Notes: a model not told the origin generated them from the sequence alone. DNA of 64,000 bases from Chlorobaculum limnaeum (GCF_001747405.1 NZ_CP017305.1:2064001-2128000); one strand, 5' to 3'; numbered from the stretch's first letter, positions 8,740 through 38,828 are shown. A program made the numbers and translations.

Positions 8740-8820
8740 TCTTACCGCCTCCGCCCGACCACACGCGGCAGTCGCGCTGTTTGTTGTCATGTTCGTGTTC
8801 GCTCTCTTCCCGGAGCATTT

Positions 8821-9021: not shown

Positions 9022-9043
9022 CTGAACTATTTACTGTCAGTTG

Positions 9044-12805: not shown

Positions 12806-12824
12806 GTTGGTACGGATTTGACGG

Positions 12825-15827: not shown

Positions 15828-15929
15828 TTTCAAGTCATTATTCTACAATGCTTTACAGTGATTTTTCACCCCTTGAAATTGCCTGTTTCACACCTTTATC
15901 ACAACCCGGCAAAATTCACAAGCACCCAC

Positions 15930-20044: not shown

Positions 20045-20064
20045 GTTCTCGCTCTTTGTTGGTT

Positions 20065-21387: not shown

Positions 21388-21390
21388 GAT

Positions 21391-21428: not shown

Positions 21429-23147
21429 TCAGAAAGTGTAGTTCATGCCAACCTCCCACTCACGGGGCGGCGCGTCATAGCCATCGACATAGAGATACTC
21501 GCGGTCGAGCAGGTTATCGACATCGACATAGAGCTGCATGGCTCCGGGCCGGTAATCCACGCGCAGGTCAACCAGCCCGTATCCCGGCAGGGTCTCCACA
21601 TTGTCCGTGCGGGAATAGGCCTGGCCGGTGTATTTCAGGTCTGCACGAATGGAGAGGCGGCTGAAGGGCTTGAGCGCGATCTGTCCCGAAAGGGTATGGA
21701 ATGGAATGGCGGGCAGCCAGAGGCCGGTCTCTTCATTGCGGGCGTGCAGGTAGAGGTACGAAGGGGTCAGTTCGAGCCATGCCGCGGGCTTCCAGGTGAG
21801 CGAACTCTCCAGACCCTGATAGATGACTTCACCGAAATTCTCATAGCGGCCCGTGTTGTCGACGGCGCGAACGTAGGTGATGCGGTCGGTGATGTCGCGG
21901 CGGAACAGCGACAGCTCCCAATTCAGCTTCTCCGATGGCGTGAACGAGAGGGCAAGGCCCGTCTTCATGGCCCGCTCCATCTGCAAGTCGGGGTTGGAGC
22001 GGGTCGTGGAGGTCTCGTTGTAGCGTTGCCGGAAGGTGGGCAGGTTACTGCTGCTGCCCGAGTTCAGCTCGATTTTCCAGGGTTTGCGGCTCCAGGTGAC
22101 CCCGAGTTCGGGGTTCACGGTGTTGCTGAACGTTGAGTAGAGATTTCCCCGGATACCGGCCACCGCCGACCAGGGGCCATTGGACTGCGAGAACCGCTTC
22201 GAAAAAAGCAGCCAGCCTTGCTCTTCCTCCTGCTCGTCGATCGCCGTTCCGCTGGCCTGTTGCCACTCGAATCCGGCGCCTGCCTGAAGTTCTCCGAGAA
22301 GGGGAAGCGACACCTTTCTTTTCAGGGTCTGGCCCACCGACTTTACCCGGAGTTGCGAAAAGAAGTCCCGGTCTGAGTCGCTGTTACGGGTGGTGGTTTC
22401 CCGGTACCAGCTCCGGCTGTCAAGGCCGTTGAATCTGGCCCCGAACAGCATCGATGAGTCTTCGTAGTTCATGCGGGAGTTGGGCGTCCTCGTTTCGGGA
22501 TAGCCCCGCAGCCCTTTCTTCTGCTTGCTGTAATCGCCGGAGAGAAAAAGCTCGGTGCCAGAATCGCCCTTGAAATCAAGCCGCAACCCGGCGCGACGCT
22601 CCTTGAGGTCGTCGTTGACCGTGAAGCCGTCGTACTCTCTCGCTCCGGCGCTCAGGGTCGCAGAGAAACGGTCGATGCCGCCCTGCAGGGTGATCTCCCC
22701 ATTTTTTGCTCCATGGTTACCGGCATGAAGGTCAACCGTGCCGCCGAAGCGGGATGACTGCCGGGTGGTGATTTCGATCACGCCACCTTCGGTATTGTCG
22801 CCGAACGCCACGCCACCACGCCCCTTGTGCACCACGATTTTCCCAATCCGTTCGACAGGAATCATCGACCACTTCACGGCCCCGGAGTAGGAGGTGGGAT
22901 CGTTGATGGAGCGACCATCCACCAGCACCTTTACCTGATACGATCCCCTGATGGAGACCGATGTTTCAGTCGCCTTGACGCCCGGAATGCGATTGAGCAG
23001 ATCCGGGGTATCGGAAGCCTGCATCGATGCTATGTCGGCCTGGCCGATAACCACAGTCTCATCGCCGCGCCCGGATGCACACACCACATCCGAAAGGGCA
23101 ACCGACATGAGCATCGCTGTCATGATGCAGGTGACAAAAAACTTCAC
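21429..23147 (-). CDS. TonB-dependent receptor at the operon end
   Basis: This 572-aa outer-membrane receptor is rather short for the family. The start is GTG 23147, which overlaps the chelatase stop (GTGA) and begins a signal peptide (KFFVTCIMTAMLMSVALSDV). A longer frame inside the chelatase gene has no signal. The plug domain is visible: TPDLLNRIPGVKATETSVSI, then VLVDGRSINDP and GRGGVAFGDNTEGGVIEITT. The barrel ends with WEVGMNYTF. Coupling to a CobN-like chelatase and to the riboswitch-led operon suggests a corrinoid, porphyrin or metal-chelate ligand. Confidence 0.9.
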   Translation of the reverse strand: MKFFVTCIMTAMLMSVALSDVVCASGRGDETVVIGQADIASMQASDTPDLLNRIPGVKATETSVSIRGSYQVKVLVDGRSINDPTSYSGAVKWSMIPVERIGKIVVHKGRGGVAFGDNTEGGVIEITTRQSSRFGGTVDLHAGNHGAKNGEITLQGGIDRFSATLSAGAREYDGFTVNDDLKERRAGLRLDFKGDSGTELFLSGDYSKQKKGLRGYPETRTPNSRMNYEDSSMLFGARFNGLDSRSWYRETTTRNSDSDRDFFSQLRVKSVGQTLKRKVSLPLLGELQAGAGFEWQQASGTAIDEQEEEQGWLLFSKRFSQSNGPWSAVAGIRGNLYSTFSNTVNPELGVTWSRKPWKIELNSGSSSNLPTFRQRYNETSTTRSNPDLQMERAMKTGLALSFTPSEKLNWELSLFRRDITDRITYVRAVDNTGRYENFGEVIYQGLESSLTWKPAAWLELTPSYLYLHARNEETGLWLPAIPFHTLSGQIALKPFSRLSIRADLKYTGQAYSRTDNVETLPGYGLVDLRVDYRPGAMQLYVDVDNLLDREYLYVDGYDAPPREWEVGMNYTF

Positions 23148-26100
23148 TCGTTGATCTCCTCCAGTTGCCCTTCGGTTTCGAGATACTCCTCCTGCAAGCA
23201 CTGCTTCATCTCGTCCGTTGCGTTCCACATGCCGCGGCTGATCGCTTCGAGCAGTTTGTCGAGAATGTTCTGGCGGGCGTAGGGGTTGACCTCCTCCATC
23301 CACTTTTTCATCTCCTCGTCGAAGACATACTTCCCGGCCACGCGCTCGTACATCCAGTCATCGACCACCTCGGCGGTGGCGTCCCAGCCGAGAATGATGT
23401 CGAGCACCTTGGAGATGTCGCCAGCCCCTTTGTAGCCGTGCCGCTTGAGGCCGTCGAGCCACTTGGGATTGAGCAGGCGGGAGCGGAAAATGTGCTTTGC
23501 CTCCTCGAAGGTGGTGCGCACCTGCGCCCGGTTCGGATCGGAGCTGTCGCCCATGAAGGCTTCGGGCAGTTCGCCGCCGCGCTGACTTTTGGCCGCCGTG
23601 ATGAGACCGCCGTAGTAGTTGTAGTAGTCGGTGCAGGAGAACATGTCGTACTCGCGGCTGTCCTCGTTCTTGACCGTGGCGTCCATGCGGGAGAGCACCC
23701 GCCTGAAGGTGTCGGGCTTCTGCTGGCCGTACGATCCGCGCCCGTAGGCGTGGGACGAGTAGCGGATGTAGTTGGCCGCAAGGTCGTCCTGCGTCTGCCA
23801 GTTTTTCGATTCGATCAGCTCCGAAACGCCCGCCCCGTAGGTGCCGGGAGGGCAGCCGAAGACGCGGAACGACGCTTCGCGCAGCGCCTCCTCGTCGTTC
23901 ATGCCCTGCCTCCGGTACTCCTCGACGTCGGCAAGCACGTTACGGCGCAAGAGGTTGCTTTCGGGCGGTTCGTCGAGCGCGGCGACCATTCTGACCGCAT
24001 CGTCGATACGCTCGACCAGCAGCGGAAAGGCGTCGCGGAAAAAGCCGGAGATGCGGGGCGTCACATCGAGCCTCGGTCTGCCAAGTTCTTTGAGCGGAAT
24101 GATTTCGACCCCCTGGACATAGCCGCTGCCCTTCTTCCAGACCGGTCGTACGCCCATGAGGTAAAAAATTTCGGCAAGATCGTCGCCGCCGGAGCGCATG
24201 GTCGCGCCGCCGAACAGGATGATGCCGATGTTGCGGGGATACGCCCCCTTCTCTTCGAGGTAGCGCTCGACGAGAGCGTCGCCGAGGCTGCACCCGACCT
24301 TCCAGGCTGCGGGCGTGGGAATCCGCTGGGGATCGATGGAGAAGAAGTTGCGCCCGGTCGGCAGAATGTCCGCCTGTCCGCGGGTGGGAGCGCCGGACGG
24401 GCCGGGATCGACAAAGCGCCCGGCAAAGCCTTTAAGGGATGCGTCGATCTCGTCGGTCACGCGCAGCAGACGTGGCACGAGGTCGTCACAGATGTAGCGG
24501 AGACCGGCCATCACATCGGGCGTCACGAGCGCCGACATTTCAGCCTGAACGGACTCCGGAGCATCCGGCAAGTAGCCTTTCGCCGAGAGCATTTTCACCA
24601 TCGCGAGCGCATGGTCATGGGCGCGGCGAATCATCTCCCCGCCGGTCTCGGAGGTCGGACCGAACACCGGCTCCCCCTTTCGACGAAGCAGCTCGTCGTA
24701 GTCGAAGCCCATCGCCGTGACCATCGACTCGCGCAGCGACGGCACGCTGCCCTGTTCGAGGCGGGTGAGCTGCACGAGCAGCTCCACCAGCCGGTCGCCA
24801 TCGGGAGCGACGCCCATCGTGTGCAGGCCATCGGAAACCATGGTATCGGCAATCTCGTCGAGCGCGGAGTGCAGTACTTCGAGAAATTTGTCGAAATCGG
24901 CAAACGCCTTTTCGCGGGTGTACCCGGTATCCTTGTCGAGATCGGCAGCGAGCACCGCGTCCCAGATCATTGGACGCAGGACGTCGAGCTTGCCGGGATC
25001 GCTGTTGCGAGCCTCGGCATAACTCCGCAGGTGGCCGTCGAGCACTGCCATCTCTTCGTACAGGTCGGCGTTGGTGAAGACCGGCGTCATGTGATCGATG
25101 ATGCAGCAGTTCGAGCGCCGCTTGGCCTGCGTCCCTTCGCTCGGATTGTTGATGATGTAGGGGTAGATGTTCGGCAAATCCATGATCGACAGATCGGGAT
25201 AGCACTCCTCCGACAGTCCGAGCGCCTTGCCCGGCAGCCATTCGAGCGAGCCGTGCGTGCCGACGTGCATCACGGCGTCGGCCTTGAAAACGTTCCTGAT
25301 CCAGCGGTAGTGGGCCAGATAGTGATGCGGCGGCGGAATGTCCGGGTTGTGCAGCATCTGATCCTGACGCTCGAAGCTTCCCCGCGACGGCTGGATGGTG
25401 ATGAACACGTTGCCGTTGATCGTGCCCGGAAAGAGCAGTTCCTCGTCATGCATGAACAGCTCTCCCGGCATCTCGCCCCAATCCTTCACCATCTTCTGCT
25501 TCACGGCTTCCGGCAACGCTTCGTGCCACGGCTGGTACAGCTCCCGGTTCGCTTTGGCTTCGGCTTTTGCGGCCATCTGATCCGGGGTGAGCCAGCGTCG
25601 GTCGCAGGTCATTCGGGTGACAAGCTCCTTTGCCAGCTCGTCGCCATTCTCGTACTGCCGCCCCACAACGTAGCCCTCCTCTTCCATCCGTTCGAGCAGC
25701 AGCCTGATGCTCTCGAAGCTGTCGAGACCGGATGCGCACCCGATACGGTCATTGCGTGGCGGGTAGTGGTGGAAGATGATGGCGATGCGCTTGTCATCGT
25801 TGGGCTTGCGGCGAAGCGCGGCCCAGCGGAGCGCCATGTCAGCCAGCTTCGAGACGCGCTCTTCGAGCGGCATGATCCTGAGCACTTCGCCGCCGGTCAG
25901 CGGATCGATGCCCATCCTCTCGCGTGTCGAAAAGGGCACGGTCATGAGAGCGCCGTCGAACTCGGGCTGCGCGGCGTTGAAGGAGACCTCCATCGTGCCC
26001 AGGCCCTGAATGCTCTCCCTCCACTGCTCGCGAGTCTGAAAGGTGTTGAAAGCTTGCAGGAATGGCACGTCGAGACCCGGCAAAATGGTGCGGTAATCGG

Positions 26101-26923
26101 GCGAGGCCATCGAGAGGGCAAAAAGCATCGGATTGATGAGTACGTCGATGCGGCTCGTGCCGTCCGGGCGGCGGAAGAAGTGCCCGGCCACGAAATCGGC
26201 CCCCTTGTTTCCCCGAATCACGTCGCGGTAGCGGTGGTGGAAAACGGCGATGATGTTGGCCCCACGCTCTTCGACCTGGCGGATGAGATAATCGTAAGCA
26301 GCCAGGTCGCCATCGACGAAGTAGTTCTGGTAGAACCAGAGTCCGACCGTGGGTTTCGACGGATCGACGTGCTTTTCAAGGTACCCCTCGAAATCGTCGA
26401 AGGCCGACCAGTCGGGATGATAGATACCCTCGTGAGGCATCTCGACCGGCTTCTCCGCATCGTTTTCGCCGCCATGGATCAGATGGCAGAGATAACGGAG
26501 CATGTTGGCCACGTTGATCGCGCCGCCGTTCTGGATGTAGCGCCGGAGCCTGTCGCCCGCTTCGGTGCCGTACAGGGCGCTGTGCTGCTGGGCCAGTTCG
26601 GCAGCTTCGTCGTCACCGCCTCCTGCCGGAATCATGATGAGCGGTGTTGCCTGGCCCGCTTCGCGCCGTTCGGCTAACGCTTCGAGAAAAGCGTCGAAAG
26701 CGGGAAAGGAGGCCTTGCCGCCCATGAGACGGATAATGACCGCATCCGACGAGGCGGCGGCGCGGGCGAACGCTGCAATCTGCTCCGGCGAGGAGAGCTG
26801 CGCGGCGATGCGGGCCTTGAGTTCCGCCTGGCCACCCCCGTCGTTGTAACGCCTGAGTCCGGCGCTGAGCGTGGAGATTTCGGAGGGGTTGACGCAGAAA
26901 TAGCAGAGCGAGATTGGTTTCAT
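23144..26923 (-). CDS. CobN-like cobaltochelatase large subunit
   Basis: This 1259-aa protein is closest to CobN by its motifs: HVGTHGSLEWLPGKALGLSE near residue 552, NLPN-like DLPNIYPYIINNPSEGTQAK followed by RRSNCCIIDHMTP, and a C-terminal block with YYNYYGGL and HGYKGAGDISKVLD. The His residues of the HxGTHG motif are intact, unlike the copy at 9-12.8 kb. The start at 26923 overlaps the radical SAM stop (ATGA). CobN proteins insert cobalt into corrins with ATPase partners. Homologues such as HmuS of Bacteroidota work in heme utilisation next to TonB receptors, so removal of metal is an alternative. It has no C-terminal membrane helix. Confidence 0.92.
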   Translation of the reverse strand: MKPISLCYFCVNPSEISTLSAGLRRYNDGGGQAELKARIAAQLSSPEQIAAFARAAASSDAVIIRLMGGKASFPAFDAFLEALAERREAGQATPLIMIPAGGGDDEAAELAQQHSALYGTEAGDRLRRYIQNGGAINVANMLRYLCHLIHGGENDAEKPVEMPHEGIYHPDWSAFDDFEGYLEKHVDPSKPTVGLWFYQNYFVDGDLAAYDYLIRQVEERGANIIAVFHHRYRDVIRGNKGADFVAGHFFRRPDGTSRIDVLINPMLFALSMASPDYRTILPGLDVPFLQAFNTFQTREQWRESIQGLGTMEVSFNAAQPEFDGALMTVPFSTRERMGIDPLTGGEVLRIMPLEERVSKLADMALRWAALRRKPNDDKRIAIIFHHYPPRNDRIGCASGLDSFESIRLLLERMEEEGYVVGRQYENGDELAKELVTRMTCDRRWLTPDQMAAKAEAKANRELYQPWHEALPEAVKQKMVKDWGEMPGELFMHDEELLFPGTINGNVFITIQPSRGSFERQDQMLHNPDIPPPHHYLAHYRWIRNVFKADAVMHVGTHGSLEWLPGKALGLSEECYPDLSIMDLPNIYPYIINNPSEGTQAKRRSNCCIIDHMTPVFTNADLYEEMAVLDGHLRSYAEARNSDPGKLDVLRPMIWDAVLAADLDKDTGYTREKAFADFDKFLEVLHSALDEIADTMVSDGLHTMGVAPDGDRLVELLVQLTRLEQGSVPSLRESMVTAMGFDYDELLRRKGEPVFGPTSETGGEMIRRAHDHALAMVKMLSAKGYLPDAPESVQAEMSALVTPDVMAGLRYICDDLVPRLLRVTDEIDASLKGFAGRFVDPGPSGAPTRGQADILPTGRNFFSIDPQRIPTPAAWKVGCSLGDALVERYLEEKGAYPRNIGIILFGGATMRSGGDDLAEIFYLMGVRPVWKKGSGYVQGVEIIPLKELGRPRLDVTPRISGFFRDAFPLLVERIDDAVRMVAALDEPPESNLLRRNVLADVEEYRRQGMNDEEALREASFRVFGCPPGTYGAGVSELIESKNWQTQDDLAANYIRYSSHAYGRGSYGQQKPDTFRRVLSRMDATVKNEDSREYDMFSCTDYYNYYGGLITAAKSQRGGELPEAFMGDSSDPNRAQVRTTFEEAKHIFRSRLLNPKWLDGLKRHGYKGAGDISKVLDIILGWDATAEVVDDWMYERVAGKYVFDEEMKKWMEEVNPYARQNILDKLLEAISRGMWNATDEMKQCLQEEYLETEGQLEEINE

Positions 26924-27981
26924 GATGGTATCTCTCCGTTGTACAGACAATAGTCGTAGATGGTTCGATAGAGGTCGCAGCTCAGACCGGCCCCGTCAGC
27001 GCCGTTGTAGTGAAGCCTCGACGGACAGTCGCCGGGGCAACGCCCCTGAAGCCCGCATCCGGCGCACTTTTCAAGCTCAGGCAACCGCCCGTCGGGCAGC
27101 GCTGTGTCGAACATGCGGGGATGATCGAGCGTACCGAGGTGGAAGCGGGCATCTCCGAGTGCTTGGGTGCAGGGATAGAGTTCGCCACGCGGCGTGACGG
27201 CGAGGCTCGATCCGGTGCAGGCCTGGCAGTAGGGACGGGCTTCAGCGCGCCCGAGAGCCGCAAGCACCGTCTGCCGCTCACGCAGGATGAGTGGACGGCT
27301 CCGCTGCGCATTCAGCACATCGAGCGTGGCGAGCAGGCGAGTGACGCCACTGCGGATCGTGACGGCATCCGGTGGCTGCACGCCGATTTTCGCCGTCACG
27401 GAGCCTTTTTGCACCAGCAAATCCAAACCGATTGCCGAGGCCATCGGCATCGAGTGCAGCGCCATGGCAAGCGTTGACAGCACTGGCGTATTGAGCGACA
27501 TTAACACCGTTGTGACCGAAAATGGCACCCGTTCGCTGTCGAGCATGGAGAGCGCTTTCCAAGTCGCCGCGCCCTGGCCGCGAAGCTGCTCCTGAATGGT
27601 GGGCAGTCCATCGACGCTGACGCCGACAGCGGTGCCGAACAATTGCAAACGGCGGGCACACTCCCGGTCAAGCAGCACGCCGTTGGTCTGGATGGCGGTG
27701 GTAGCGGGCAGATTGTTGTTTCTGATATACTCCAGAATCCCGAAAACAAGCTCTCCGGCAAGCAGCGGCTCACCGCCGGTCAGTTGCACATGGAAGGGCT
27801 GGTTCGATGCGGCCACCAGGTCGAGCGCACGCAGAGCCGTCTCAAGCTCCATCATCTCTCCCTGACCGTTGCCGCCACCTTCGTAGCAATAGGCGCAATC
27901 GAGGTTACATGCCGTGGTGACGACGAGCATGAGCGATGAAATCCGGTGATTGTTCAATACAAATCCTCTTTGATTCGGCAT
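26920..27981 (-). CDS. Radical SAM/SPASM-domain protein of unknown substrate
   Basis: This 353-aa iron-sulfur enzyme carries the radical SAM signature CNLDCAYCYEGG near residue 25, which binds a [4Fe-4S] cluster and S-adenosylmethionine, and the LTGGEPLL motif. The C-terminal part is a SPASM-like domain with clustered Cys (CQACTGSSLAVTPRGELYPC, then CAGCGLQGRCPGDCPSR) for auxiliary clusters. The family includes peptide and protein modifying enzymes such as anaerobic sulfatase-maturating enzymes. The start at ATG 27981 overlaps the TIM-barrel gene by 28 bp; a GTG at 28035 is also in frame. Its position between a TIM-barrel gene and a CobN gene in a corrinoid operon is unexpected, and the substrate is unknown. 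Confidence 0.9.
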   Translation of the reverse strand: MPNQRGFVLNNHRISSLMLVVTTACNLDCAYCYEGGGNGQGEMMELETALRALDLVAASNQPFHVQLTGGEPLLAGELVFGILEYIRNNNLPATTAIQTNGVLLDRECARRLQLFGTAVGVSVDGLPTIQEQLRGQGAATWKALSMLDSERVPFSVTTVLMSLNTPVLSTLAMALHSMPMASAIGLDLLVQKGSVTAKIGVQPPDAVTIRSGVTRLLATLDVLNAQRSRPLILRERQTVLAALGRAEARPYCQACTGSSLAVTPRGELYPCTQALGDARFHLGTLDHPRMFDTALPDGRLPELEKCAGCGLQGRCPGDCPSRLHYNGADGAGLSCDLYRTIYDYCLYNGEIPS

Positions 27982-28967
27982 TCGGGAAAAAAGCGTTGTA
28001 ACGCCCGTTTCTGCCGCTCGACCTTCCCGATCCACTCGCCAAGGGAGCTGAACGCGAGTTCGAACACGACGTTGTCCGGCTCGATGAGATCGAACAGCTC
28101 GCCAAGCATGGAGTGCGAAAAAGGCTCGTGACGATCCAGATCGCGTACATGGCGGAGAGCGATGGAGAAGCGCTGCCAGAAATCGTGAGCGCCGCCAAAA
28201 GGATCAGCATTGGCAAATCCGGCCTTGGCCGCTTCACCCGACAGACTCTTGCTCAGATGCACCGCCCTGATGAGCTTGCGATAGTCACCGAGCCGCTCAA
28301 CCTCGCGCAAAAGAAAAGCAATCGCCTCCTCTTCGGTTCGCAACTCCTGATTCTTGTTCAGAATATGGCCGGTATCGAGCACGATGCCGCACTTCGGCCA
28401 CCGGACTTTCGAGAGCAACCGGTCGATTTCGTCCGTGCTGTCGAGCCGGAAATTGCCAGGCCACCAGAGATTCTCGAACAGAATCCAGCCGTCGTATGGA
28501 GTGTCGCGCACCACCTCGTTGATGATTTCAGCGGAAAGATCGACGGTTTCTTGCCAACTCCACGGGGGTTGCCAGTTGAAGACGTACTCCAGCTCGTAGT
28601 GAACCGGATGGAATACCACATAGGGCACGCCGAAACGGGCCGCCAGTTCGAGCTGTGAACGATAGCATGAAATCACCGCCTCCCGGTTCACCCCGCCGTA
28701 GTAGTGGCGCACGGTTTCCTCGCTGTCGAAGATGCGGAGCAACCCCTCCCGGTCGTCGCGCCATATCTGGCGCAGCATGACGAAAAAGCGCAGATGAATT
28801 CCCCCGACGATCTCTTTCGGAATTGCCGTGCAGTCGTATGCGCCTGCCGGGTACAGCTCGAAGCCGTCCATGCCGGTGCGCCGGAGCAGCGATGCCGCCT
28901 CGCTCCAGTTCGGCCCGGCGATGTCCAGATCGGAGCCATGCGTACTGATGTTGAGCAGCCAGTTCAC
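27954..28967 (-). CDS. TIM-barrel protein, sugar phosphate isomerase/epimerase-like
   Basis: This 337-aa protein has the AP-endonuclease-2/xylose-isomerase-like fold. Typical parts are NISTHGSDLDI at the first strand, DGFELYPAGAY, VVFHPVHYEL, WILFENLWWPGNF with a Glu where a metal ligand is expected, and KCGIVLDTGHIL with Asp and His metal ligands, then AVHLSKSLSGE. It probably binds a divalent metal and acts on a sugar-like or other small substrate. The start is GTG, overlapping the nitrilase-like gene (GTGA). Its tight coupling to the radical SAM and nitrilase-like genes suggests one pathway. No substrate can be assigned. Confidence 0.85.
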   Translation of the reverse strand: MNWLLNISTHGSDLDIAGPNWSEAASLLRRTGMDGFELYPAGAYDCTAIPKEIVGGIHLRFFVMLRQIWRDDREGLLRIFDSEETVRHYYGGVNREAVISCYRSQLELAARFGVPYVVFHPVHYELEYVFNWQPPWSWQETVDLSAEIINEVVRDTPYDGWILFENLWWPGNFRLDSTDEIDRLLSKVRWPKCGIVLDTGHILNKNQELRTEEEAIAFLLREVERLGDYRKLIRAVHLSKSLSGEAAKAGFANADPFGGAHDFWQRFSIALRHVRDLDRHEPFSHSMLGELFDLIEPDNVVFELAFSSLGEWIGKVERQKRALQRFFPECRIKEDLY

Positions 28968-30523
28968 GGCGTTTCCTCCTCGCGCTTTCCGGTTTCATCG
29001 ACCTGGCAGGCATCGTGCAAGCGCCCGTTTCGCGCAAGCAAAAGTTCGGCGTCGATCCGGTCGAAAAAGCGCTTCCGGCGAAGTTTTTCCACCTCGATCA
29101 GCATGGAGGCTCCATCGAGGCCTTCGCCGGTGGCCTCCTCCCAGCGGTAGTGATCGACTGGTGGCAGACAGATAAAAGACACGTCGCGCCCGCACGCCGC
29201 AACGGCAACCTGCTCGATGGAACGGGAGCCGAGCACGGCCCGGTCGGCCTCGTCGAATCCGGTCGCGGACACCACCACCAGATCGCACCCCTCTTTGGCG
29301 AGCGCCGTTACCGCTTCCGGGTGGTGGCACTCCTCCGGGGAAAGCAGCGTCAGGCGCAGATGGTCGAGATCGATCAGCACGAACTCGTCACGTTCCGGTT
29401 GTCGCCGGTACACACTTCCATCCGGGCAGCAGCAGGTCAGCTCGCTCACTCCGTCCGTATCCACAAGGCCAGCACAGAACACCGTACCATGCACCCGTGC
29501 CGCATTCAGCAGAAAACCGCTCGCCGTCACCCGGTCGGAAACCCTGAGCATCGGCAGCACCACTACCAGCCCGGCAGCCCTCTGACGGCCATGCAAGAAG
29601 CTGTCGAGAACTGACACATCGCCCGACTCCGGAGAGTGTTCATGCAGGCAGTGTACCTGCACCGGAGCGGGTTCGGGCAGTCCGTGCCACTTCGTCATAT
29701 CGGTGGCATAGCGCATGTCGAGATAGAGCGAACGGTAGCGCTCCGGAGTCCTTGCAGCGAGACGCTCACGGCTCGGCGAAATCAGGCGACCCTTTGAAAG
29801 GGGGAGTTCGACATGAAACACTGCGGAGTCCGGCGAGCTGTACTCGGCAATAACCGAACCATCAGAAGCGTAGGCACAGGAAAAGGCATCGAAACACTCC
29901 ATCGTGCGATCTTTGCCCGTGCGGTTGCAAGCCACCAGAGCGCAGCCGTTTTCACGCGCCCGCGCCCGCCAAAGCTCCCGTGGATCGAGCGAGCCTCCAG
30001 GCCAGTTGGCCGAAACCAGCAAGAGATCGGCACCACGCAGAGCGGCTGTTCTCGGAATGAGTCCGTAGTAGGTGTCGGAGCAGATAAGCACGGCAGCTTT
30101 ACCCCATGGCGTCTCGAAAATACTCTCCTGCAAAGGCGATCCCTGGCAAGCCCAGCGAGCCTCGGCGGTCACTTTCCGATAATTGAGATGCCGCTTTCCG
30201 TCCGGGCCGAGCACGGCGACGGAGTTATAGAAAATACCGGTGAGCGGATCGGTTTCGGGATAACCGAACACGATGTAACAGCCTTCGGCTTCGGCGATTT
30301 CGGCCATCGCCCGCACCGACGGGCCATGCTGCGTTTCGGCAACAGCGGCGACCTCTTTCGGCGACCGGAAGCTGTAGCCGCTGACGGCCAACTCGGTGTT
30401 CACGATAATCCTTGCACCCGCTTCAGCCGCCTGCCGGTTGAGGCGGATCAGCTCCCGGCGGTTGTGCTCCGGCTCGCCATGCCGGACTGCCAGATGGACA
30501 AGCGCGATGTTCAGTCGTTCCAT
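28964..30523 (-). CDS. Tandem nitrilase-superfamily protein (second domain degenerate)
   Basis: This 519-aa protein starts with a C-N hydrolase domain. Its catalytic triad is visible: Glu in NTELAVSGYSF, Lys in YRKVTAEARW and Cys in VLICSDTYYG. The second half (about residues 270-500) repeats the fold weakly: LVVVLPMLRVSDRVTASGFL, then HGTVFCAGLVDTDGVSELTC and DLVVVSATGFDEAD, but without a recognisable Glu-Lys-Cys triad. Such enzymes hydrolyse or transfer amides. Start 30523 (MERLNIALVHL) is chosen; it overlaps cbiZ by 13 bp. Next to CbiZ it may act on amide groups of corrinoids, but this is inference. Confidence 0.85.
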   Translation of the reverse strand: MERLNIALVHLAVRHGEPEHNRRELIRLNRQAAEAGARIIVNTELAVSGYSFRSPKEVAAVAETQHGPSVRAMAEIAEAEGCYIVFGYPETDPLTGIFYNSVAVLGPDGKRHLNYRKVTAEARWACQGSPLQESIFETPWGKAAVLICSDTYYGLIPRTAALRGADLLLVSANWPGGSLDPRELWRARARENGCALVACNRTGKDRTMECFDAFSCAYASDGSVIAEYSSPDSAVFHVELPLSKGRLISPSRERLAARTPERYRSLYLDMRYATDMTKWHGLPEPAPVQVHCLHEHSPESGDVSVLDSFLHGRQRAAGLVVVLPMLRVSDRVTASGFLLNAARVHGTVFCAGLVDTDGVSELTCCCPDGSVYRRQPERDEFVLIDLDHLRLTLLSPEECHHPEAVTALAKEGCDLVVVSATGFDEADRAVLGSRSIEQVAVAACGRDVSFICLPPVDHYRWEEATGEGLDGASMLIEVEKLRRKRFFDRIDAELLLARNGRLHDACQVDETGKREEETP

Positions 30524-31653
30524 TTGTCGGCGTACCCCAGCGCCCATGCGGTTGTGATGAATGAAAGCAGTGCCTCTCGACCGGCGCTCCAACTGACCGC
30601 TTCAAGCTGTTCGGCATACGTTGCGATCCGCTCCTGCCGGTGCGAAACCGCCGCCGCGAAGAGCGCACCCTGCATGACGAAAATCTCGCCCATGCAGGAG
30701 TCGGGCAACAGACCCCAAGCGTGTTTATCGTACAGATGCACCAGCGCGCACGCCGCAGCCACCGTCATGGAGTCGCGGTCAAGGCCTGCGAAATTTTTCC
30801 TGAACACCTCACGATCGTCCGGCGACAACCGCCCGGAAACCATCTCCATCACCTCTTCCCTCTTCGCGCCAAACCGCCGGATATGTTCATAGACTGAGCG
30901 CTGGCTCTGCGGAGTCAGGGAGTTCTGGCGGGAAAGCGTGTCACGCAGTGCATCGATTACCGCGCAGGCGATCAGCTCGCCGAGCTTGGAGTGCTTGCCC
31001 GCGCTGGTGAGCGGGCGCGATCCGCCAAGCACGCAGGCCACCGCGATCTGGTCGGTACCCGTGCCGGTGGCCAGCCCCTCGGAGTAGCGCGACGAAACGG
31101 CAAGCTCCTGCAACACGGCGCTCTTGGCCTCGGTCGCGGTCACGATGCTGCGCACCATAGCGCCGTGGCTCAGTTCGCGATTGATGAGCAACATCATGTT
31201 GATCGTGCCCGGCGGCTCTTCACCCTTTTTGTCCAACGGTTCAAACCCCTCCTCGCCCTCCCAGACCGAGGCGGGATCGCCCGCACGTCCCGCGTTACCT
31301 TCGACGCCTCCGGTGCAGATTGCCGTGACCGAGAGGTCTCGAAACGAGCGCGTGGCGATGGCCGCGTGGTTCATGTTGGCCGCCGTGCCGAGCGATGCGC
31401 TCAGCTCCGCGACCCCGTACCGTTCGCACAGCCCCTGATGGTAGCGCTCCGGTTCGGCAACAATGGTTTTCAGATCTTTCCGCATGTGACCCGCAGGCTC
31501 GCACGACTGGTGGTTGAACACGCCGCCAAGGTCATCGCGCAGGCCGCCATGCACCCGGCAGGTCGAAACTACCCTATGCGGCGCGAGAAAACGCACCGAA
31601 ATCATCTTGCCCACGCGATGAACCTCGGCATCGCCAAAAACTCCTAACTTCAT
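30511..31653 (-). CDS. cbiZ: Adenosylcobinamide amidohydrolase
   Basis: CbiZ cleaves the aminopropanol arm from (adenosyl)cobinamide or from pseudocobalamin-type corrinoids, giving cobyric acid for re-assembly with the cell's own lower ligand. The 380-aa protein shows the family core: NHQSCEP, SLGTAANMNHAAIATRSFRD with AICTGGVEGNAGRAGDPA, then GTINMMLLINRELSHGAMVR and ATGTGTDQIAVA. A C-terminal extension of about 130 residues follows, including a helical part with HIRRFGAKREEVMEMVSGRL. It starts 47 bp after the second BtuF-like gene and overlaps the nitrilase-like gene. With BtuB/F/C/D it defines a corrinoid salvage and remodelling operon. Confidence 0.93.
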   Translation of the reverse strand: MKLGVFGDAEVHRVGKMISVRFLAPHRVVSTCRVHGGLRDDLGGVFNHQSCEPAGHMRKDLKTIVAEPERYHQGLCERYGVAELSASLGTAANMNHAAIATRSFRDLSVTAICTGGVEGNAGRAGDPASVWEGEEGFEPLDKKGEEPPGTINMMLLINRELSHGAMVRSIVTATEAKSAVLQELAVSSRYSEGLATGTGTDQIAVACVLGGSRPLTSAGKHSKLGELIACAVIDALRDTLSRQNSLTPQSQRSVYEHIRRFGAKREEVMEMVSGRLSPDDREVFRKNFAGLDRDSMTVAAACALVHLYDKHAWGLLPDSCMGEIFVMQGALFAAAVSHRQERIATYAEQLEAVSWSAGREALLSFITTAWALGYADKWND

Positions 31654-31700: not shown

Positions 31701-32873
31701 TCATTCAAGTTTCCGGTAATAGTACAGCTTGTGTCCCGGCATCAGCTCCGGATGAAAAATAGTGATGAGATCGGCAAGGATCAGATGAGGTTCGGTCATG
31801 CCTGCATCCCAGAAACTGCTCCTGCCGTTGCTGAAACAACGGTTGTTGTTGTTATAAACCCTGCCCTCCCTGACGCTCCTGAACGCCTGATAACGCAGAT
31901 CTTCCGAAAGCAGCTCCGGCATGGTCGAAACGCGGGAATGGGTGTTCAGCCAGAAATCGGCTTCTGCACCCTTCTCCATGGCAACTTCTCCGCTCAGCAT
32001 ATGACCTCGATCGAGCTCCTGATCCCTGAAAAGGTAGTCTGCCCCGGCATGATCGAGCATCGCAACAAACCAGTTCGACGACCCCATGGTAGACCAGGTG
32101 CCCTTTCTCATATACCCGGCAATAACCGTCGGCCGCTCATGCAAACCCCTCGCTTTTTCCTGTACCTGCAGATATGCCCTCTCTTTCTCACTGAATATCG
32201 CTGCCGCCAGACTGTCCCTGCCGAAAAAGGCGCCCATGAACCGTATCCATTCGAGAGCGCCGAGGGGGTGATCTTCAAGAGAGGCAGAGAACAATCCGGG
32301 AAGCAACCCGTAGGATCCTAACTTCGCCGGAATGTCCGAACCGGCTGCGGATGTGTTGATGAAAACCATGTCGGGATTCACGGAAACAAGCTTCTCCATG
32401 TTCATCGAACGCATGAGTCCCGTTACGGCAATGCTCCCGTCGTCTATCTTCCGGTGTATCCAGTCCTGACCGACCCGTACTTCTCCCGATACGCCTGCAA
32501 TCGCATCGGAAGCGCCGATCAGTTCGAGCAGCGCGACCTGAAATCCGCTTTCGCAGGTCACGTTACCCAGTGGAACCCGAACCACCCGCTCGTCGGAATC
32601 ATGCCGGGGTATTGCAGCGCCGCGGGGAACCAGCAGATAACGCATGGCCGGAGTCCTCTTTTCATGCGAACTGGAAAAAACCTCGATTCTGGTATAACCG
32701 TCGTGCTTCTTCATCGAAAAGAGTTTCGCGTACCGTAGAGGCTGCACATGTACGGAAAGGCTCTCTTTTACGGCTCTTTTTTCAGTCGGGGACTGGCATG
32801 CCTGACAGAGAACCAGACAGACAGAAAGCGCCGGAAACAGCCACCACCCGAAAAGCGATTTCCTCTTGTTCAT
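31701..32873 (-). CDS. BtuF-like periplasmic binding lipoprotein (second copy)
   Basis: This 390-aa substrate-binding protein belongs to the helical-backbone class III (BtuF/FhuD/FecB type). The lipobox CQAC lies near residue 26 after a hydrophobic signal. The two lobes are visible: VRVPLGNVTCESGFQVALLE with LIGASDAIAGVS, MVFINTSAAGSDIPAKLGSY, and a long central helix AAIFSEKERAYLQVQEKARG. Near the C-terminus VREGRVYNNNNRCFSNGRSS is typical of this subfamily. It overlaps btuD by ATGA. The two BtuF-like proteins are only distantly similar, so they may bind different corrinoids or precursors. Confidence 0.88.
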   Translation of the reverse strand: MNKRKSLFGWWLFPALSVCLVLCQACQSPTEKRAVKESLSVHVQPLRYAKLFSMKKHDGYTRIEVFSSSHEKRTPAMRYLLVPRGAAIPRHDSDERVVRVPLGNVTCESGFQVALLELIGASDAIAGVSGEVRVGQDWIHRKIDDGSIAVTGLMRSMNMEKLVSVNPDMVFINTSAAGSDIPAKLGSYGLLPGLFSASLEDHPLGALEWIRFMGAFFGRDSLAAAIFSEKERAYLQVQEKARGLHERPTVIAGYMRKGTWSTMGSSNWFVAMLDHAGADYLFRDQELDRGHMLSGEVAMEKGAEADFWLNTHSRVSTMPELLSEDLRYQAFRSVREGRVYNNNNRCFSNGRSSFWDAGMTEPHLILADLITIFHPELMPGHKLYYYRKLE

Positions 32874-33952
32874 CGCTCTTTTCCTTCGTTTTGCGATTCA
32901 TTTACCAGAGAAAGCAGCTCATCCAGGCTTTCCTTCTCGACCGGCCTGCAGCCCTCGCCGGAGACGTACTTCCACTTGTGCTCGCCGTTCAGGGTTTCAA
33001 TCTCGATATGCCTGATGTCCGATGCCCCGGGTATAACCATGCAGCCGGCTCTTTCGAGCGCCCGCTGCGTCCAGTATGCCGTTATACCCTCGCCGACCAG
33101 TCCGATCTGCCTTACGCCCTGGCGACTCAAGCGGAACGAGCCGGAAAACGGATCGAACTCGAACCCGTTCCGCTTGAAAGCGTGTTCGAGATGGCCGTCG
33201 AGCACAAGCGATTCGGGAATGGCGGCAACCATTGCCGATGAAGAGCCTCCCGAAGGATTCATCAGCCATATCCTGTCGGCAGCCTGCAGGGCGAGATCAA
33301 GTTCGTGGGTGGAAAGCACAACCGCTTTCCCCTGTTCCTGTGCAAGCGTTTTCAGGAGCTGTATAATTTCGAGACGGTTCGGCAGATCGAGATGCGCCGT
33401 CGGCTCATCGAGCAGAATCACCGGCGTGTCCTGGGCGATGGCACGGGCGATCATCACCTTCTGACGCTCGCCATCACTGAGATCCCCGACATGGCGATGT
33501 GAGAATCGCCTTGTACCGGTGGTCTCGATCGCCTGACGGACAATAGTCTCATCCTCCGGTGACAGCCGGCCCATCCATCCTGTATAGGGAGAACGACCGA
33601 GAGCCACGAGCGCATAGACCGACATGTTTCCGGTCATAACCCGTTCGGTCAGCACAAGGCTCATCAGTTTTGCAATTTCCTTCGGATGCTGCTTTCCGAC
33701 CTCTTTTCCTTTCAGCAGCACCGATCCACCGAGAGGTTTCTGCACCCCGGCCAGCGTTCTCATCAGCGTCGATTTGCCTGAACCGTTGGGCCCCAGAAGA
33801 CAGACAAGTTCACCGGCAGCAAGATCAAGCTCGATCTTGTCCGCAATGACCTTGCAGGTACCATGAGCTGAACGGCTGAACCCCGCGCTTTTTCGTTTTG
33901 CCGATCGGTATCCGATAGAGAGGGATCGGGTCTGTAAAACATGTTCGCTCAT
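32870..33952 (-). CDS. ABC transporter ATPase, BtuD-like with C-terminal extension
   Basis: This 360-aa protein energises BtuC. The ABC domain (about residues 1-255) has Walker A GPNGSGKST, a signature DLSDGERQKVMIARAIAQD and Walker B VILLDEPTAHLDL. About 100 further residues (from HLEHAFKRNGFEFDPFSGSF through ERAGCMVIPG and a Lys/Glu-rich end) do not belong to the ABC domain. Start 33952 is chosen because it overlaps the btuC stop (ATGA); a much longer frame upstream only shadows btuC. The extension is a small alpha/beta-like domain of unknown role. Its place in the operon fits corrinoid import. Confidence 0.92.
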   Translation of the reverse strand: MSEHVLQTRSLSIGYRSAKRKSAGFSRSAHGTCKVIADKIELDLAAGELVCLLGPNGSGKSTLMRTLAGVQKPLGGSVLLKGKEVGKQHPKEIAKLMSLVLTERVMTGNMSVYALVALGRSPYTGWMGRLSPEDETIVRQAIETTGTRRFSHRHVGDLSDGERQKVMIARAIAQDTPVILLDEPTAHLDLPNRLEIIQLLKTLAQEQGKAVVLSTHELDLALQAADRIWLMNPSGGSSSAMVAAIPESLVLDGHLEHAFKRNGFEFDPFSGSFRLSRQGVRQIGLVGEGITAYWTQRALERAGCMVIPGASDIRHIEIETLNGEHKWKYVSGEGCRPVEKESLDELLSLVNESQNEGKER

Positions 33953-35040
33953 GAGAAGGAGGCTCTGAGGTTTTTCTGCCTGACGATGACCCAGATAACG
34001 ACCGGGGAACCGATCAGGGCGGTTACGGCATTGATGGGAAGCGTCGTCTGGGTTCCTGGCATCTGCGCGATAATGTCGCACGCAAGCATCAGAATGGCCC
34101 CCATGAGGCATGAACTCGGCATGAGAAAACGGTGATCGGAGGTGTTCAGTATGGAACGGGCCAGATGGGGCACGGCGATACCGATGAATCCGATGGGACC
34201 GCAGAAACCGGTCACGCTTCCGGCAAGCAGGCTCGTCGCAAGGATCACGAATAGCCGTGTCGAGAATGTGCCCATGCCGAGGCTGCGGGCATAGTTTTCG
34301 CCAAGCAGCAGCACGTTGAGCGGTTTGGAGGTTGCAAAAGAGATAAGAAGCCCTGCCGTCACCACGATGCAAAGCACGGCAAGCTGCGTTCCGAATACGC
34401 CACCGAGACTCCCGAATGTCCAGATCAGATAATCCTGAATCTCTTCAGGAGCGCTGAAATACTGCCAGATGCTGATGAATGAAACCGTGATGTTGCCGAC
34501 CATGATGCCGACAATCAGCAGGACGACATTGTCGCGGATCCGCACCGCAACCCCGAGCACGACAAGCAGGACAGCCATCGCTCCTGCGGTTGCAGCTAAA
34601 ACGATCAGCCAGCTGCCGCCGAGCCCGAGCTGACGGATGGCAAACGCATTGGCGGCGCCTCCGGAAGCGAGCATCACCACGGCAACGCCGAGACTTGCCC
34701 CGGCAGAAATGCCAAGCACGGACGGACCGGCAAGCGGGTTGCGGAACAGGGTCTGCATCTGAAGTCCGCTTACGGATAGAGCCGCTCCGGCAACAACCGC
34801 CGTAATCGCCTTCGGAAGCCGTATCGTCATGACGATCTTTTCCCAGGCCACCCCTTCTGTTTCACTGCCGAAAAGAATCGCAACGACGCTCCTGAGCGGT
34901 ATCTGCACCGAGCCCAGCGCAATATCGAGCATGAAGAGCGACAACAGCACGATCAGCATGGCGACGATCATCCCTGATCTGGGCACCAGCGAGGGCCAGG
35001 CATGAACTTTCGGATCCGATTGCGACAAACTGCTCTGCAT
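33949..35040 (-). CDS. ABC transporter permease, BtuC/FecCD family
   Basis: This 363-aa membrane protein has about ten transmembrane helices. FecCD-family landmarks are RLPKAITAVVAGAALSVSGL, then GPSVLGISAGASLGVAVVML near residues 105-130, and GPIGFIGIAVPHLARSIL, which contains the coupling helix touching the ATPase. It starts 1 bp after the first BtuF-like gene and overlaps the ATPase gene (ATGA). Family members import vitamin B12, heme or Fe-siderophores; the riboswitch and CbiZ point to corrinoids. Confidence 0.94.
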   Translation of the reverse strand: MQSSLSQSDPKVHAWPSLVPRSGMIVAMLIVLLSLFMLDIALGSVQIPLRSVVAILFGSETEGVAWEKIVMTIRLPKAITAVVAGAALSVSGLQMQTLFRNPLAGPSVLGISAGASLGVAVVMLASGGAANAFAIRQLGLGGSWLIVLAATAGAMAVLLVVLGVAVRIRDNVVLLIVGIMVGNITVSFISIWQYFSAPEEIQDYLIWTFGSLGGVFGTQLAVLCIVVTAGLLISFATSKPLNVLLLGENYARSLGMGTFSTRLFVILATSLLAGSVTGFCGPIGFIGIAVPHLARSILNTSDHRFLMPSSCLMGAILMLACDIIAQMPGTQTTLPINAVTALIGSPVVIWVIVRQKNLRASFS

Positions 35041-35041
35041 G

Positions 35042-36259
35042 TTACTTCACCTCTCTGTAAAATGTGAATGATTCTTCCAGGCCGTTTTTCTTGAGAAGGC
35101 CCGGATGCAGAATCATGACAAGATCCCTGAGAATCGCGTCAGGCTGGACGACGCCGTACTCCCAGTAGGCATTTCCGCCATATTCGTTGAGCTGACGGTT
35201 ATTGTTATAGACTCGTCCGTTCTTCACCGGGCGAAGGTCAGCAAACCGGGCGTCAAGCGCGATCAGCTCTTCCAGGCTTTTCACGGTACCGGGATTAAGC
35301 CAGTAATCGGCTTGCAGGGCAAGAGGATAAACCGACTCGATATCGAGTTCGACACTCCCGCTGCCCGGTTCGCCGGCCCACGGATAGGACGCGCCTGCAT
35401 CGCGCAGCAAGGCCGCCACATAACTCTCTCCTGCGGGAACGAACCATGAATCCTTGACTGGCAAGCCGCAAAGCACGACAGGCTTGTTCCTGATTGCCCC
35501 GGTCATCTCCCTGATGCTCCTGTATGAAGCCTCTATTTCGGCAAATCGCTGACGGGCAAGCTCTTCCCTGCCGAAGAGGGCTCCGAACAGCTTCAACCAC
35601 TCCGCCCTGCCGAGAGGCGTCTCCTCCTGCCATTCGGCAATGACAAGAACCGGAATGGAGGAGTGTTCGAGCGTCTGATAGCCCGATTTGCGGGAAGGCG
35701 GTAAAGCAGGAGCAAAAACCACTCCGGGATCGAGAGCAAGGATGGTTTCCAGATCGGGACTGAACGGCATGCCGATTTCGGTGATGCTACCCTCCGCAAT
35801 GCGGCGCCTGAGGGAAGGGGTATTGACGAATTCGCTTCTCGATATGCCGACAATGCGGTCGTTCTCTCCAAGCAGATTGATGAAACCTATCTGTGTCGTT
35901 GAAAAAACAGCAGCACGCCGGACAGGCGTACGAATCACCGAATAGCCGTTAAAACCGGAGGGAGCCGGGCTGCCGTGAGGCAGCAGAAGGTACCGGAGCG
36001 TATCGCGGTTGCTCCCCTGACCTGGCATGACGAGAAGGGTTCGGTAACTCTTGCTGTCAACGATACTGAAACGCTTTGCATAGGCGGGCGACCCGGCCTG
36101 CGGCCGCATCTGCCGATTTTGCCCGGAAGAAACGGCATCACGCTCCGAAGCGGGCCTGCATGCCGTCAGCGACGCCGCATGAACGGCTATGACGAACATG
36201 AGAACGACCCGCGACAATACCTGCAGATAGTTTTTGTTACTCATCAGGCAGAGCGGCAT
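35042..36259 (-). CDS. BtuF-like periplasmic binding lipoprotein (first copy)
   Basis: This is a class III substrate-binding lipoprotein of 405 aa, or 400 aa if it starts at the internal ATG 36244 (MSNKNYLQVL). The signal peptide leads to a lipobox LTAC. Visible parts are VRRAAVFSTTQIGFINLLGE with NDRIVGISR, LALDPGVVFAPALPPS, WLKLFGALFGREELARQRFA and VKNGRVYNNNRQLNEYGGNA. The start at 36259 overlaps the last base of the 4Fe-4S gene stop (TGATG). It delivers ligand to BtuC. It differs clearly from the second copy at 31.7 kb. Confidence 0.88.
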   Translation of the reverse strand: MPLCLMSNKNYLQVLSRVVLMFVIAVHAASLTACRPASERDAVSSGQNRQMRPQAGSPAYAKRFSIVDSKSYRTLLVMPGQGSNRDTLRYLLLPHGSPAPSGFNGYSVIRTPVRRAAVFSTTQIGFINLLGENDRIVGISRSEFVNTPSLRRRIAEGSITEIGMPFSPDLETILALDPGVVFAPALPPSRKSGYQTLEHSSIPVLVIAEWQEETPLGRAEWLKLFGALFGREELARQRFAEIEASYRSIREMTGAIRNKPVVLCGLPVKDSWFVPAGESYVAALLRDAGASYPWAGEPGSGSVELDIESVYPLALQADYWLNPGTVKSLEELIALDARFADLRPVKNGRVYNNNRQLNEYGGNAYWEYGVVQPDAILRDLVMILHPGLLKKNGLEESFTFYREVK

Positions 36260-36641: not shown

Positions 36642-38546
36642 TCAGAATGAAACCGCGTAGCCGACCCTGACAAGCCGACCCGGATCGTAATAAGCATAAC
36701 GGCTGGTTGCCGATTCAATCAGGTTACCTGTTGTCTGAATCTCGGTATCGAACAGATTTTCAACCGCGATCGTAACGTTGCCGGGACCTGCTTTAACACG
36801 CCCGGAAAGATCGAAAGCGGTATAATTGTCAAGATTGTCCTGACGGCCGGCAAGTATCCGGCATTTCAGGTCGAGACCGAAGGGTGTCGAGGTATAGGCG
36901 ATGCCGAAGGTATTCTGGAATTTTGGACCCGGCTGGTACTTTTCTCCATAGATATCTTCCGACACAGGATCCGCCCAGTACCCAGCGGCCGATAGCGAGA
37001 TCCTGCCGGGAAACCCTTCCTCGCCGTAAAATGGACGCAGCCCCAACTCCCATTCAATGCCTTTCGACCCGTATGCTCCAGCGTTGAAATACTTATACGG
37101 CTTGCCATGCATGCGGTCGATCTGGATTTTGTCGTCATAGGTCATCCAGAATCCGGAGACCCTTGCCGAAGCGCAATCGCAGTTCCACTTGACCCCGGTC
37201 TCGTAACTCCAGCCCGATTCCGGCTTGAGATCGGGATTTCCTTTTATGGTTTTGCTGTCATAGTAGAGCTGTGTAAACGTCGGCACCTGAAATGCCTTGC
37301 CAGCATTGGCAAACAGGCTGAGATCGTCCGACGCTTTCCACGTAATACCCGCACTTGGCAGAAAGACGTTATGATCGGTTGTTTCCGCCTCGTTGTCGAT
37401 GAACTGCTCCCGCCCGCCAAGCGTCAGGATGACGCCGTCGCCAAAACGCTTTTTCAGTTCGGCAAAGAGTCCGTAATCGTCTCGTGACTTCTCGCCATAG
37501 ATGTTGGAATATTCAGCATAACGATGCACATAGTCGGCTCCCACGGTCAATTCGAAACCGTGCGAAAAAAGAAAACGATAATCGGTCTCGGCGCCGTAAT
37601 TGTAATTCACACGCTCAACCTCTGCATCGAATACATCATCGACATAATCCGTCTGGATGCGGTTATCGTGCATGCCGTACAGCTTTGCCTTGAACACCTC
37701 ATTTTCATAGCGAATATTGAGAAAATGAAAATCACTCTGCTGATCGGTGCGTTCGACCAGACCTGAGTCGTAACGATCGATGAACCCGGTTTTGTATCCG
37801 GCATACTGATAATCGATGAAGGTATTGGCAAACGGCGACACATTGAGATTGAACATGTACCTGTCGGTCTCGTCGAGGGCATTGGTATAGTCGCTGCTGA
37901 ACTGGCGACCGACATTGTCGAGTTCACCCATATGCTGGTAACGGAAACCGATATTGACACCCGGCAGGCTGACGCTGACGCCGTGGTTCATCCACGACTC
38001 GTTACCGAATTCAACCGATGCGGTTGCCGATGTTGTATCGGTTGGCTTCTTTGTGACAATATTGATCACGCCAGACATGGCATCCGCGCCATACAGCGTC
38101 GAGGCTGCTCCTTTGAGCACCTCGATCCTTTCGATCTGGTCAACGGAAATAGCACTGAGATCATACCCTTTCGAAGCGGCCTGCTGGACAGGCATACCGT
38201 TGACGAGAATGAGTTCCCCATCGGCCATACCCCTGATGTAGAGTGCGCTGTTCATGCCGAGCTTGTTGATACCAAGGGGAGCGAGGGACTTGTACCCGAG
38301 ACCGCCTATCCGCGAGAGCGCTTCGATGGCGTTTGTTGCGCCAGTCTTTTTCAGTTTTTCGCTGTCTGCGACGGTTACGAACCGGGAGCTTTCCTTTTCC
38401 TTTACAGAAAAACGGCTACCGGTCACCACCAGTTCATCTGCCATATAGCCCAGCGCCAATTGATCGGCACCTGAGGGAGAGGCAGCGGGTGCAGTACTGG
38501 CGCAAACCATACATGCGGCCAGAAACGCTAAAGTTTTTTTTGTCAT
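36642..38546 (-). CDS. btuB: TonB-dependent cobalamin receptor (BtuB-like)
   Basis: This 634-aa receptor is the first gene of the riboswitch-led operon. The signal peptide is MTKKTLAFLAACMVCASTAP; DELVVTGSR is the TonB box region. The plug shows ATNAIEALSRIGGLGYKSLA, ALYIRGMADGELILVNGMPV and GAASTLYGADAMSGVINIVT. The barrel has typical TonB receptor sequences (GNPDLKPESGWSYETGVKW) and ends in YAVSF. The identification as BtuB rests on the cobalamin riboswitch 280 bp upstream and on the btuFCD-cbiZ genes downstream. It probably brings cobalamins and related corrinoids across the outer membrane. Confidence 0.92.
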   Translation of the reverse strand: MTKKTLAFLAACMVCASTAPAASPSGADQLALGYMADELVVTGSRFSVKEKESSRFVTVADSEKLKKTGATNAIEALSRIGGLGYKSLAPLGINKLGMNSALYIRGMADGELILVNGMPVQQAASKGYDLSAISVDQIERIEVLKGAASTLYGADAMSGVINIVTKKPTDTTSATASVEFGNESWMNHGVSVSLPGVNIGFRYQHMGELDNVGRQFSSDYTNALDETDRYMFNLNVSPFANTFIDYQYAGYKTGFIDRYDSGLVERTDQQSDFHFLNIRYENEVFKAKLYGMHDNRIQTDYVDDVFDAEVERVNYNYGAETDYRFLFSHGFELTVGADYVHRYAEYSNIYGEKSRDDYGLFAELKKRFGDGVILTLGGREQFIDNEAETTDHNVFLPSAGITWKASDDLSLFANAGKAFQVPTFTQLYYDSKTIKGNPDLKPESGWSYETGVKWNCDCASARVSGFWMTYDDKIQIDRMHGKPYKYFNAGAYGSKGIEWELGLRPFYGEEGFPGRISLSAAGYWADPVSEDIYGEKYQPGPKFQNTFGIAYTSTPFGLDLKCRILAGRQDNLDNYTAFDLSGRVKAGPGNVTIAVENLFDTEIQTTGNLIESATSRYAYYDPGRLVRVGYAVSF

Positions 38547-38718: not shown

Positions 38719-38828
38719 ACAGTTGCCTGCCTGATGAATAGGTGTCGAAACGACGAATGGATGAAGCACGGTTTTCACATGAATCCTTGCCTGAGACTAT
38801 AAACCCGTAGTCCGTTATTTGTGCAAAT

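Follow-up and report, generated by a model that had tools for sequence, protein, structure and literature searches.

The window analysed here is a stretch of 64,000 nucleotides from Chlorobaculum limnaeum (GCF_001747405.1, NZ_CP017305.1:2064001-2128000), a member of the Chlorobiaceae whose genome comprises 2,797,276 base pairs (bp) in a single contig. It carries a corrinoid-related locus that reads, on the minus strand, as cobalamin riboswitch, BtuB1, BtuFa, BtuC, BtuD, BtuFb, CbiZ, Nit2 (a double nitrilase), a TIM barrel, a radical S-adenosylmethionine (rSAM)/SPASM enzyme, CobN1 and BtuB2, mostly with small overlaps between the genes (Table 1). An original prediction from the sequence had proposed five tightly coupled genes, CbiZ to CobN, behind a Btu import set and a cobalamin riboswitch. 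All five were found by profile matches, and the riboswitch and the BtuB1-BtuF-BtuC-BtuD-BtuF set are present upstream of CbiZ. The tight coupling holds: with start codons taken from homologues, the overlaps are 13 bp (CbiZ/Nit2), 4 bp (Nit2/TIM barrel), 28 bp (TIM barrel/rSAM) and 4 bp (rSAM/CobN1), and CobN1 and BtuB2 also overlap by 4 bp. The proposed limit of the module at CobN (position 23144) is too early, as BtuB2, ChlD, ChlI and CobN2 continue the unit in relatives. In the window, ChlD-ChlI-CobN2 (15833-9044) lie beyond a 5.6-kb tyrosine-integrase element that separates them from the CobN1 side; CobN2 is followed by a second riboswitch and then by a further TonB receptor.

Table 1. Features of the corrinoid locus, in order of transcription; positions are counted from the first nucleotide of the window.
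Feature	Position	Strand	Evidence or remark
Cobalamin riboswitch, operon leader	38820..39058	-	RF00174, 80.4 bits; same position in C. tepidum (L021:10026-10264)
BtuB1, TonB-dependent receptor	36642..38546	-	PF00593/PF07715; TonB-B12 143 bits, below cut-off
BtuFa, corrinoid-binding protein	35042..36259	-	PF01497
BtuC, permease	33949..35040	-	PF01032, 4e-73
BtuD, ATPase, start approximate	32870..33951	-	PF00005, 2e-29
BtuFb, second binding protein	31701..32873	-	PF01497
CbiZ, amidohydrolase, long form	30511..31653	-	PF01955, residues 21-235, 2e-62
Nit2, double nitrilase	28964..30523	-	CN_hydrolase PF00795, 2e-32
CbiR-type TIM barrel, predicted cobamide phosphodiesterase	27954..28967	-	AP_endonuc_2 PF01261, 6e-18
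rSAM/SPASM enzyme	26920..27981	-	PF04055, 3e-16; CNLDCAYC and SPASM cysteines
CobN1, cobaltochelatase large subunit	23144..26923	-	PF02514, E=0; TIGR02257, 973 bits
BtuB2, TonB-dependent receptor	21429..23147	-	TonB-B12 137 bits, full length
ChlD-type AAA+/VWA subunit, split here	13865..15833	-	TIGR02442
ChlI-type AAA+ ATPase	12825..13868	-	TIGR02442, 484 bits; BchI, 433 bits
CobN2, diverged CobN paralogue	9044..12865	-	HFGTSG replaces HxGxHG
CobN2 Cys loop CYGARCDGEVC (CX4CX4C)	11306..11338	-	motif, sequence alignment
Second cobalamin riboswitch	8814..9035	-	RF00174, 104.7 bits
TonB receptor after second riboswitch	6455..8641	-	inside operon in Chloroherpeton

The genes of this locus are strictly associated. 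Among 61 related genomes, CbiZ (PF01955), full-length Nit2, the TIM barrel, rSAM (E<1e-25) and CobN1 (identity of at least 64%) occur in the same six; in a seventh genome, G015, CobN1 and CobN2 alone are present, at a contig end in an assembly that is 92% complete. The TIM barrel is present in 8 of the 98 genomes of the order, and rSAM, across the 395 genomes of the phylum, in exactly these eight and no others; close relatives of CobN2 are encoded by seven of the eight and by G015. Because these genome sets match (counts uncorrected for relatedness), we regard the genes as a real unit that is rare and is inherited or lost together, and the proposal of a corrinoid-handling module that co-occurs strictly beside cobalamin riboswitches is supported. 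The module is confined to the 15 of 61 genomes with CbiD (hypergeometric probability 9e-5, with kinship ignored), and every module genome encodes CbiD plus CbiK or CbiX. Eight genomes have CbiD and CbiK and no module. Given this distribution, CobN1 and CobN2 are not needed for de novo cobalt insertion.

BtuB2, ChlD, ChlI and CobN2 continue the gene order in C. tepidum, two Chlorobium/Chlorobaculum metagenome-assembled genomes (MAGs) and one Chloroherpetonaceae MAG (in one of these MAGs, the contig stops within ChlD), and a second riboswitch follows CobN2 in both C. tepidum and C. antarcticum. In Chloroherpeton the unit lies at two places, each headed by its own cobalamin riboswitch: BtuF-CbiZ-Nit2-TIM barrel, after which come CbiM, CbiQ and an ABC ATPase (L023), and BtuF-BtuC-BtuD-TonB-BtuF-rSAM-CobN1-BtuB2-ChlD-ChlI-CobN2 (L053/L052). 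At L034, corrin-ring genes (TP methylases, CbiC, CbiG and CbiD) are found between Nit2 and the TIM barrel. From the Chloroherpeton split and the L034 order, we assign Nit2 to a group with CbiZ and the TIM barrel; the partner of rSAM is the chelatase.

Judged by family, fold, metal-site residues and gene neighbourhood, the TIM barrel is most probably CbiR, a cobamide phosphodiesterase. The top Foldseek/PDB match of its predicted structure is endonuclease IV (Endo IV; 2e-9), and residues H120, E165, D198, H201 and H237 correspond in the alignment to the Endo IV metal ligands H109, E145, D179, H182 and H216; H58, D278, H280 and E303, further candidate ligands, are invariant in homologues. The gene adjoins cobamide genes in the window, at L034 and L023, and in a Shewanella operon (L038) whose other members score as BtuF, CobU, CobC, CobQ, CobB, CobS and CobA; homologues in Shewanella and Ferrimonas operons share 34-41% identity. 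A sugar isomerase was rejected on account of the Endo IV-type ligands and the CbiR context. Mok et al. 2020 (PMC7733943) described CbiR as an AP_endonuc_2 enzyme that hydrolyses the cobamide nucleotide loop; its homologues come for the most part from Chlorobi, Chloroflexi and Proteobacteria, and about 20% of them belong to taxa that also have CbiZ. Like A. muciniphila CbiR, the protein is an AP_endonuc_2 TIM barrel with a conserved His/Asp/Glu metal site, encoded beside cobamide genes; unlike it, it is fixed beside CbiZ, a double nitrilase, rSAM and CobN, and its activity is a predicted one. A few kb downstream of the CbiR-like gene in Shewanella, a protein of 642 residues is conserved (L039:14985-16913, L038:12981-14909); its start reads like that of a B12-binding radical SAM enzyme.

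CbiZ matches PF01955 with 210.8 bits (cut-off 27) and has a C-terminal extension of about 145 amino acids that is conserved in orthologues. In CbiZ remodelling in Rhodobacter sphaeroides and archaea (as cited in PMC8620254 and PMC7733943), a CbiZ domain is likewise coupled to BtuFCD import; the CbiZ of this locus is distinguished from those systems by its C-terminal region and its CbiR partner. The double nitrilase is real, as the two halves of Nit2 align with each other (E of 0.0013). Domain 1 keeps the Glu-Lys-Cys triad (NTELAVSG, YRKVTAE and LICSD) and domain 2 lacks the Cys nucleophile. Solved relatives of Nit2 are amidases and nitrilases, and a plasmid search returned two-domain amidases in Rhizobium next to urea-type transporter genes. 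From the gene context, we would guess that the substrate is a corrinoid amide. To our knowledge, no B12 pathway has a role for a nitrilase or a SPASM rSAM enzyme. A search of one paper library found no such role, nor a paper joining CbiR or CbiZ with either enzyme; the original prediction, which had set the TIM barrel alongside these two as foreign to B12 pathways, stands for the nitrilase and SPASM enzyme but not for the TIM barrel, which fits CbiR.

The rSAM enzyme has the CX3CX2C motif and SPASM cysteines, in an anSME-type pattern and fold. Its structural model is of moderate confidence (mean predicted local distance difference test score of 72), and both model and profile place it nearest to anSME, CteB, TigE and ChlB. 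In anSMEcpe, the Asp after the YPC cysteine is the catalytic base. This residue is Thr in the present enzyme (YPCT, versus YPCD in 4k37), which weakens its identification as a formylglycine-type anSME. Maturation of a ribosomally synthesized and post-translationally modified peptide was rejected: the gene overlaps both neighbours, so that no precursor gene fits, and the protein lacks a precursor-binding N-terminal domain and has no room for one. Scores against peptide-maturase equivalogs are far below the cut-offs, and a plasmid search with rSAM returned only Nostoc proteins of 25-26% identity, with no corrinoid genes nearby. The target of the enzyme may be CobN2 or the corrin.

CobN1 exceeds the TIGR02257 cut-off of 822 bits and contains the motifs HVGTHG, of the form HxG(T/K)HG, and TDYYNYYGG. 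Its best score is against M. tuberculosis CobN (747 bits) and its lowest against HmuS (361), and it groups with genuine CobN in a small tree (98/99; the tree builder gave long-branch warnings) in which CobN2 forms a separate lineage (100/100). In motifs, score and ATPase partners CobN1 resembles the CobN cobaltochelatases that work with ChlI/ChlD (TIGR02257/TIGR02442; PDB 7C6O, 9UK9); unlike in those systems, the carriers already have CbiK or CbiX, one CobN is His-less and Cys-rich, and there is an rSAM partner. CobN2 scores 663 bits, under the same cut-off, and has HFGT(S/E)G at the site of the HxG(T/K)HG motif of the others, the His of which has been called conserved across the chelatase superfamily (PMC12583661). 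It also carries CYGA(R/K)C(D/N)GEVC and DCGCY, neither of which is present in CobN1 or in six outside homologues, and the Cys loop is kept in all four full CobN2 sequences aligned. The lack of the His together with a Cys loop was unexpected; of the new observations made here, it is the most interesting. The Bacteroidota heme de-chelatase HmuS (PMC12583661), put forward earlier as a precedent, shares the superfamily and the TonB/import context. However, its LSLDHxxEFMGG motif is found neither in CobN1 (CTDYYNYYGG) nor in CobN2 (CGCYAASAGG), both of which were rejected as HmuS members on this test; for CobN1, which is nearest to genuine CobN, lacks the second-motif His of HmuS and has ChlI/ChlD partners, the analogy is weak. 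A CobN-like protein of Trichlorobacter lovleyi (pGLOV01, L061) is found with DUF2162/ExbB/DUF2149 and two TonB receptors, with lower-ligand genes (BzaF, CobT) on one side and cobalt transport genes on the other.

We consider it somewhat more likely than not that this is a B12-riboswitch-controlled corrinoid salvage locus in two halves, for cobamide dismantling and for metal handling. Salvage of imported cobamides to cobyric acid by the first half (CbiR, CbiZ and Nit2) is well supported. By analogy with the characterised enzymes, CbiR would hydrolyse the phosphodiester of the nucleotide loop and CbiZ would remove the aminopropanol to give cobyric acid, with Nit2, at a guess, hydrolysing an amide of the same substrate; the gene context suggests that the product would enter the cell's own late cobamide pathway and gain the preferred lower ligand. 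For the second half (CobN1 with ChlD/ChlI, CobN2 and rSAM), we infer (re)metallation of metal-free corrinoids. Its context makes ATP-driven insertion of cobalt into imported metal-free corrinoids, for example hydrogenobyric acid, the most likely activity of CobN1-ChlI/D, and the rSAM enzyme would either modify the corrin or mature CobN2. A metal-free substrate is plausible because some purple sulfur bacteria make cobalt-free corrinoids when grown without cobalt (PMC6771967), and because a Spirosoma plasmid pairs TonB/BtuFCD with CbiA-CobN-ChlID-CobQ-CbiB, with no ring genes within 49 kb, although such genes may lie elsewhere in that genome. Riboswitch control suggests expression under B12 scarcity, which suits salvage.

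Several points weigh against a two-half salvage locus. CbiR and CbiZ alone would suffice for remodelling, and the two CobN proteins are not simply redundant, since CobN2 lacks the superfamily His. The second half may be impaired in this genome, where chlD is split and cut off by the mobile element, and in C. tepidum BtuB2 (L022:4145-5052) looks broken, with about 200 internal residues gone and a frame change. The likeness of the TIM barrel to A. muciniphila CbiR was drawn from the published description, and homologues in Fusobacterium and Acetoanaerobium (25-30% identity) show no cobamide genes nearby, so that the family at large may include proteins other than CbiR.

It is doubtful, but conceivable, that the locus encodes an anaerobic corrin metal-exchange system, in which the His-less CobN2 with its Cys loop, possibly activated by rSAM, would remove or transfer the metal, CobN1-ChlI/D would re-insert cobalt, and CbiR, CbiZ and Nit2 would strip the side chains. 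If true, this would be the first case known of enzymes acting on the cobalt of completed B12. An HmuS-like demetallation, by which the chelatase half would take cobalt or a wrong metal off imported corrinoids for salvage or exchange (extraction by CobN2, in which Cys replaces the usual ligands, and re-insertion by CobN1-ChlI/D), appears unlikely. In its favour, HmuS, a member of the same superfamily, has proven de-chelatase activity (PMC12583661), the motif changes in CobN2 point the same way, and the chelatase half adjoins import genes, the other half in Chloroherpeton preceding CbiM, CbiQ and the ABC ATPase. Against this, CobN1 departs from HmuS as described above, HmuS needs no ChlI/D whereas the ATPase pair at the locus fits insertion, and corrin cobalt is hard to remove.

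Less probable still is that rSAM is a maturase of CobN2, modifying a cysteine of the CYGA(R/K)C(D/N)GEVC loop for the chelatase reaction, with no free peptide involved. Its nearest relatives modify proteins or peptides, its length and absent N-terminal precursor domain resemble anSME, and rSAM and CobN2 stay together in the split Chloroherpeton locus; however, the Asp of anSMEcpe is replaced, the loop cysteines could simply bind a metal or Fe-S cluster, and the co-occurrence does not single out CobN2. Moreover, some SPASM-type enzymes act on tetrapyrroles. Equally improbable is that CobN1/2 with ChlI/D serve the cell's own cobamide synthesis as a spare late cobaltochelatase and lie beside a remodelling operon by chance: Chloroflexus aurantiacus does have both cbiK and cobN (PMC3150298) and cbi genes lie inside the operon in two genomes, but a de novo chelatase is disfavoured by the CbiK/CbiX distribution, with all carriers having one of these enzymes and eight producers lacking CobN1/2, the carriers are anaerobes with the early-insertion pathway, and the chelatase genes track CbiR, CbiZ and rSAM exactly.

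Parts of this locus have been noted before. Eisen et al. (2002), as cited in PMC8620254, remarked on a C. tepidum chelatase beside a cobalamin receptor and proposed cobalt insertion into acquired cobalamin, and Panwar et al. (2021; PMC8620254) reported that variable regions of an Antarctic Chlorobium hold cbiZ, cobN and bchHID-like genes. The cluster noted there in C. tepidum and Ca. Chlorobium antarcticum (cobN, bchHID-like, cbiZ and btu genes) is the same locus. Relative to the portions of these accounts at hand, CbiR, Nit2, rSAM, the CobN2 anomaly, the two halves and the strict co-occurrence are additional. The B12 forms in circulation in anoxic phototrophic communities are set by cobamide remodelling, and the locus joins two known remodelling hydrolases, CbiR and CbiZ, with a complete class I chelatase and three further proteins. 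It is a candidate for a system that handles the cobalt of mature corrinoids enzymatically, and the 2002 idea of metallating acquired corrinoids is now directly testable in these bacteria. Paralogues of bchH have been mutated in C. tepidum.

The mobile element (15806-21417) encodes a tyrosine integrase, an HTH_17 protein, an AAA_25 ATPase and a primase-like DUF6371 protein. It is flanked by a 16-bp direct repeat, AAAAGAAAATATTTTC; its insertion point is the very start (5' end) of chlD, to which it gives a new start. Compared with C. tepidum, in which chlD is a single open reading frame, a 1-nucleotide insertion near 15481 divides the gene into two frames, and this may be a real frameshift or a sequencing error. 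The receptor directly behind the second cobalamin riboswitch scores best against the TonB-hemin model (290 bits, cut-off 317) and not against BtuB. The PLSDB 'plasmids' L056 and L057 (2.1 and 2.6 Mb; Fusobacterium vincentii and Acetoanaerobium noterae) look like misfiled chromosomes.

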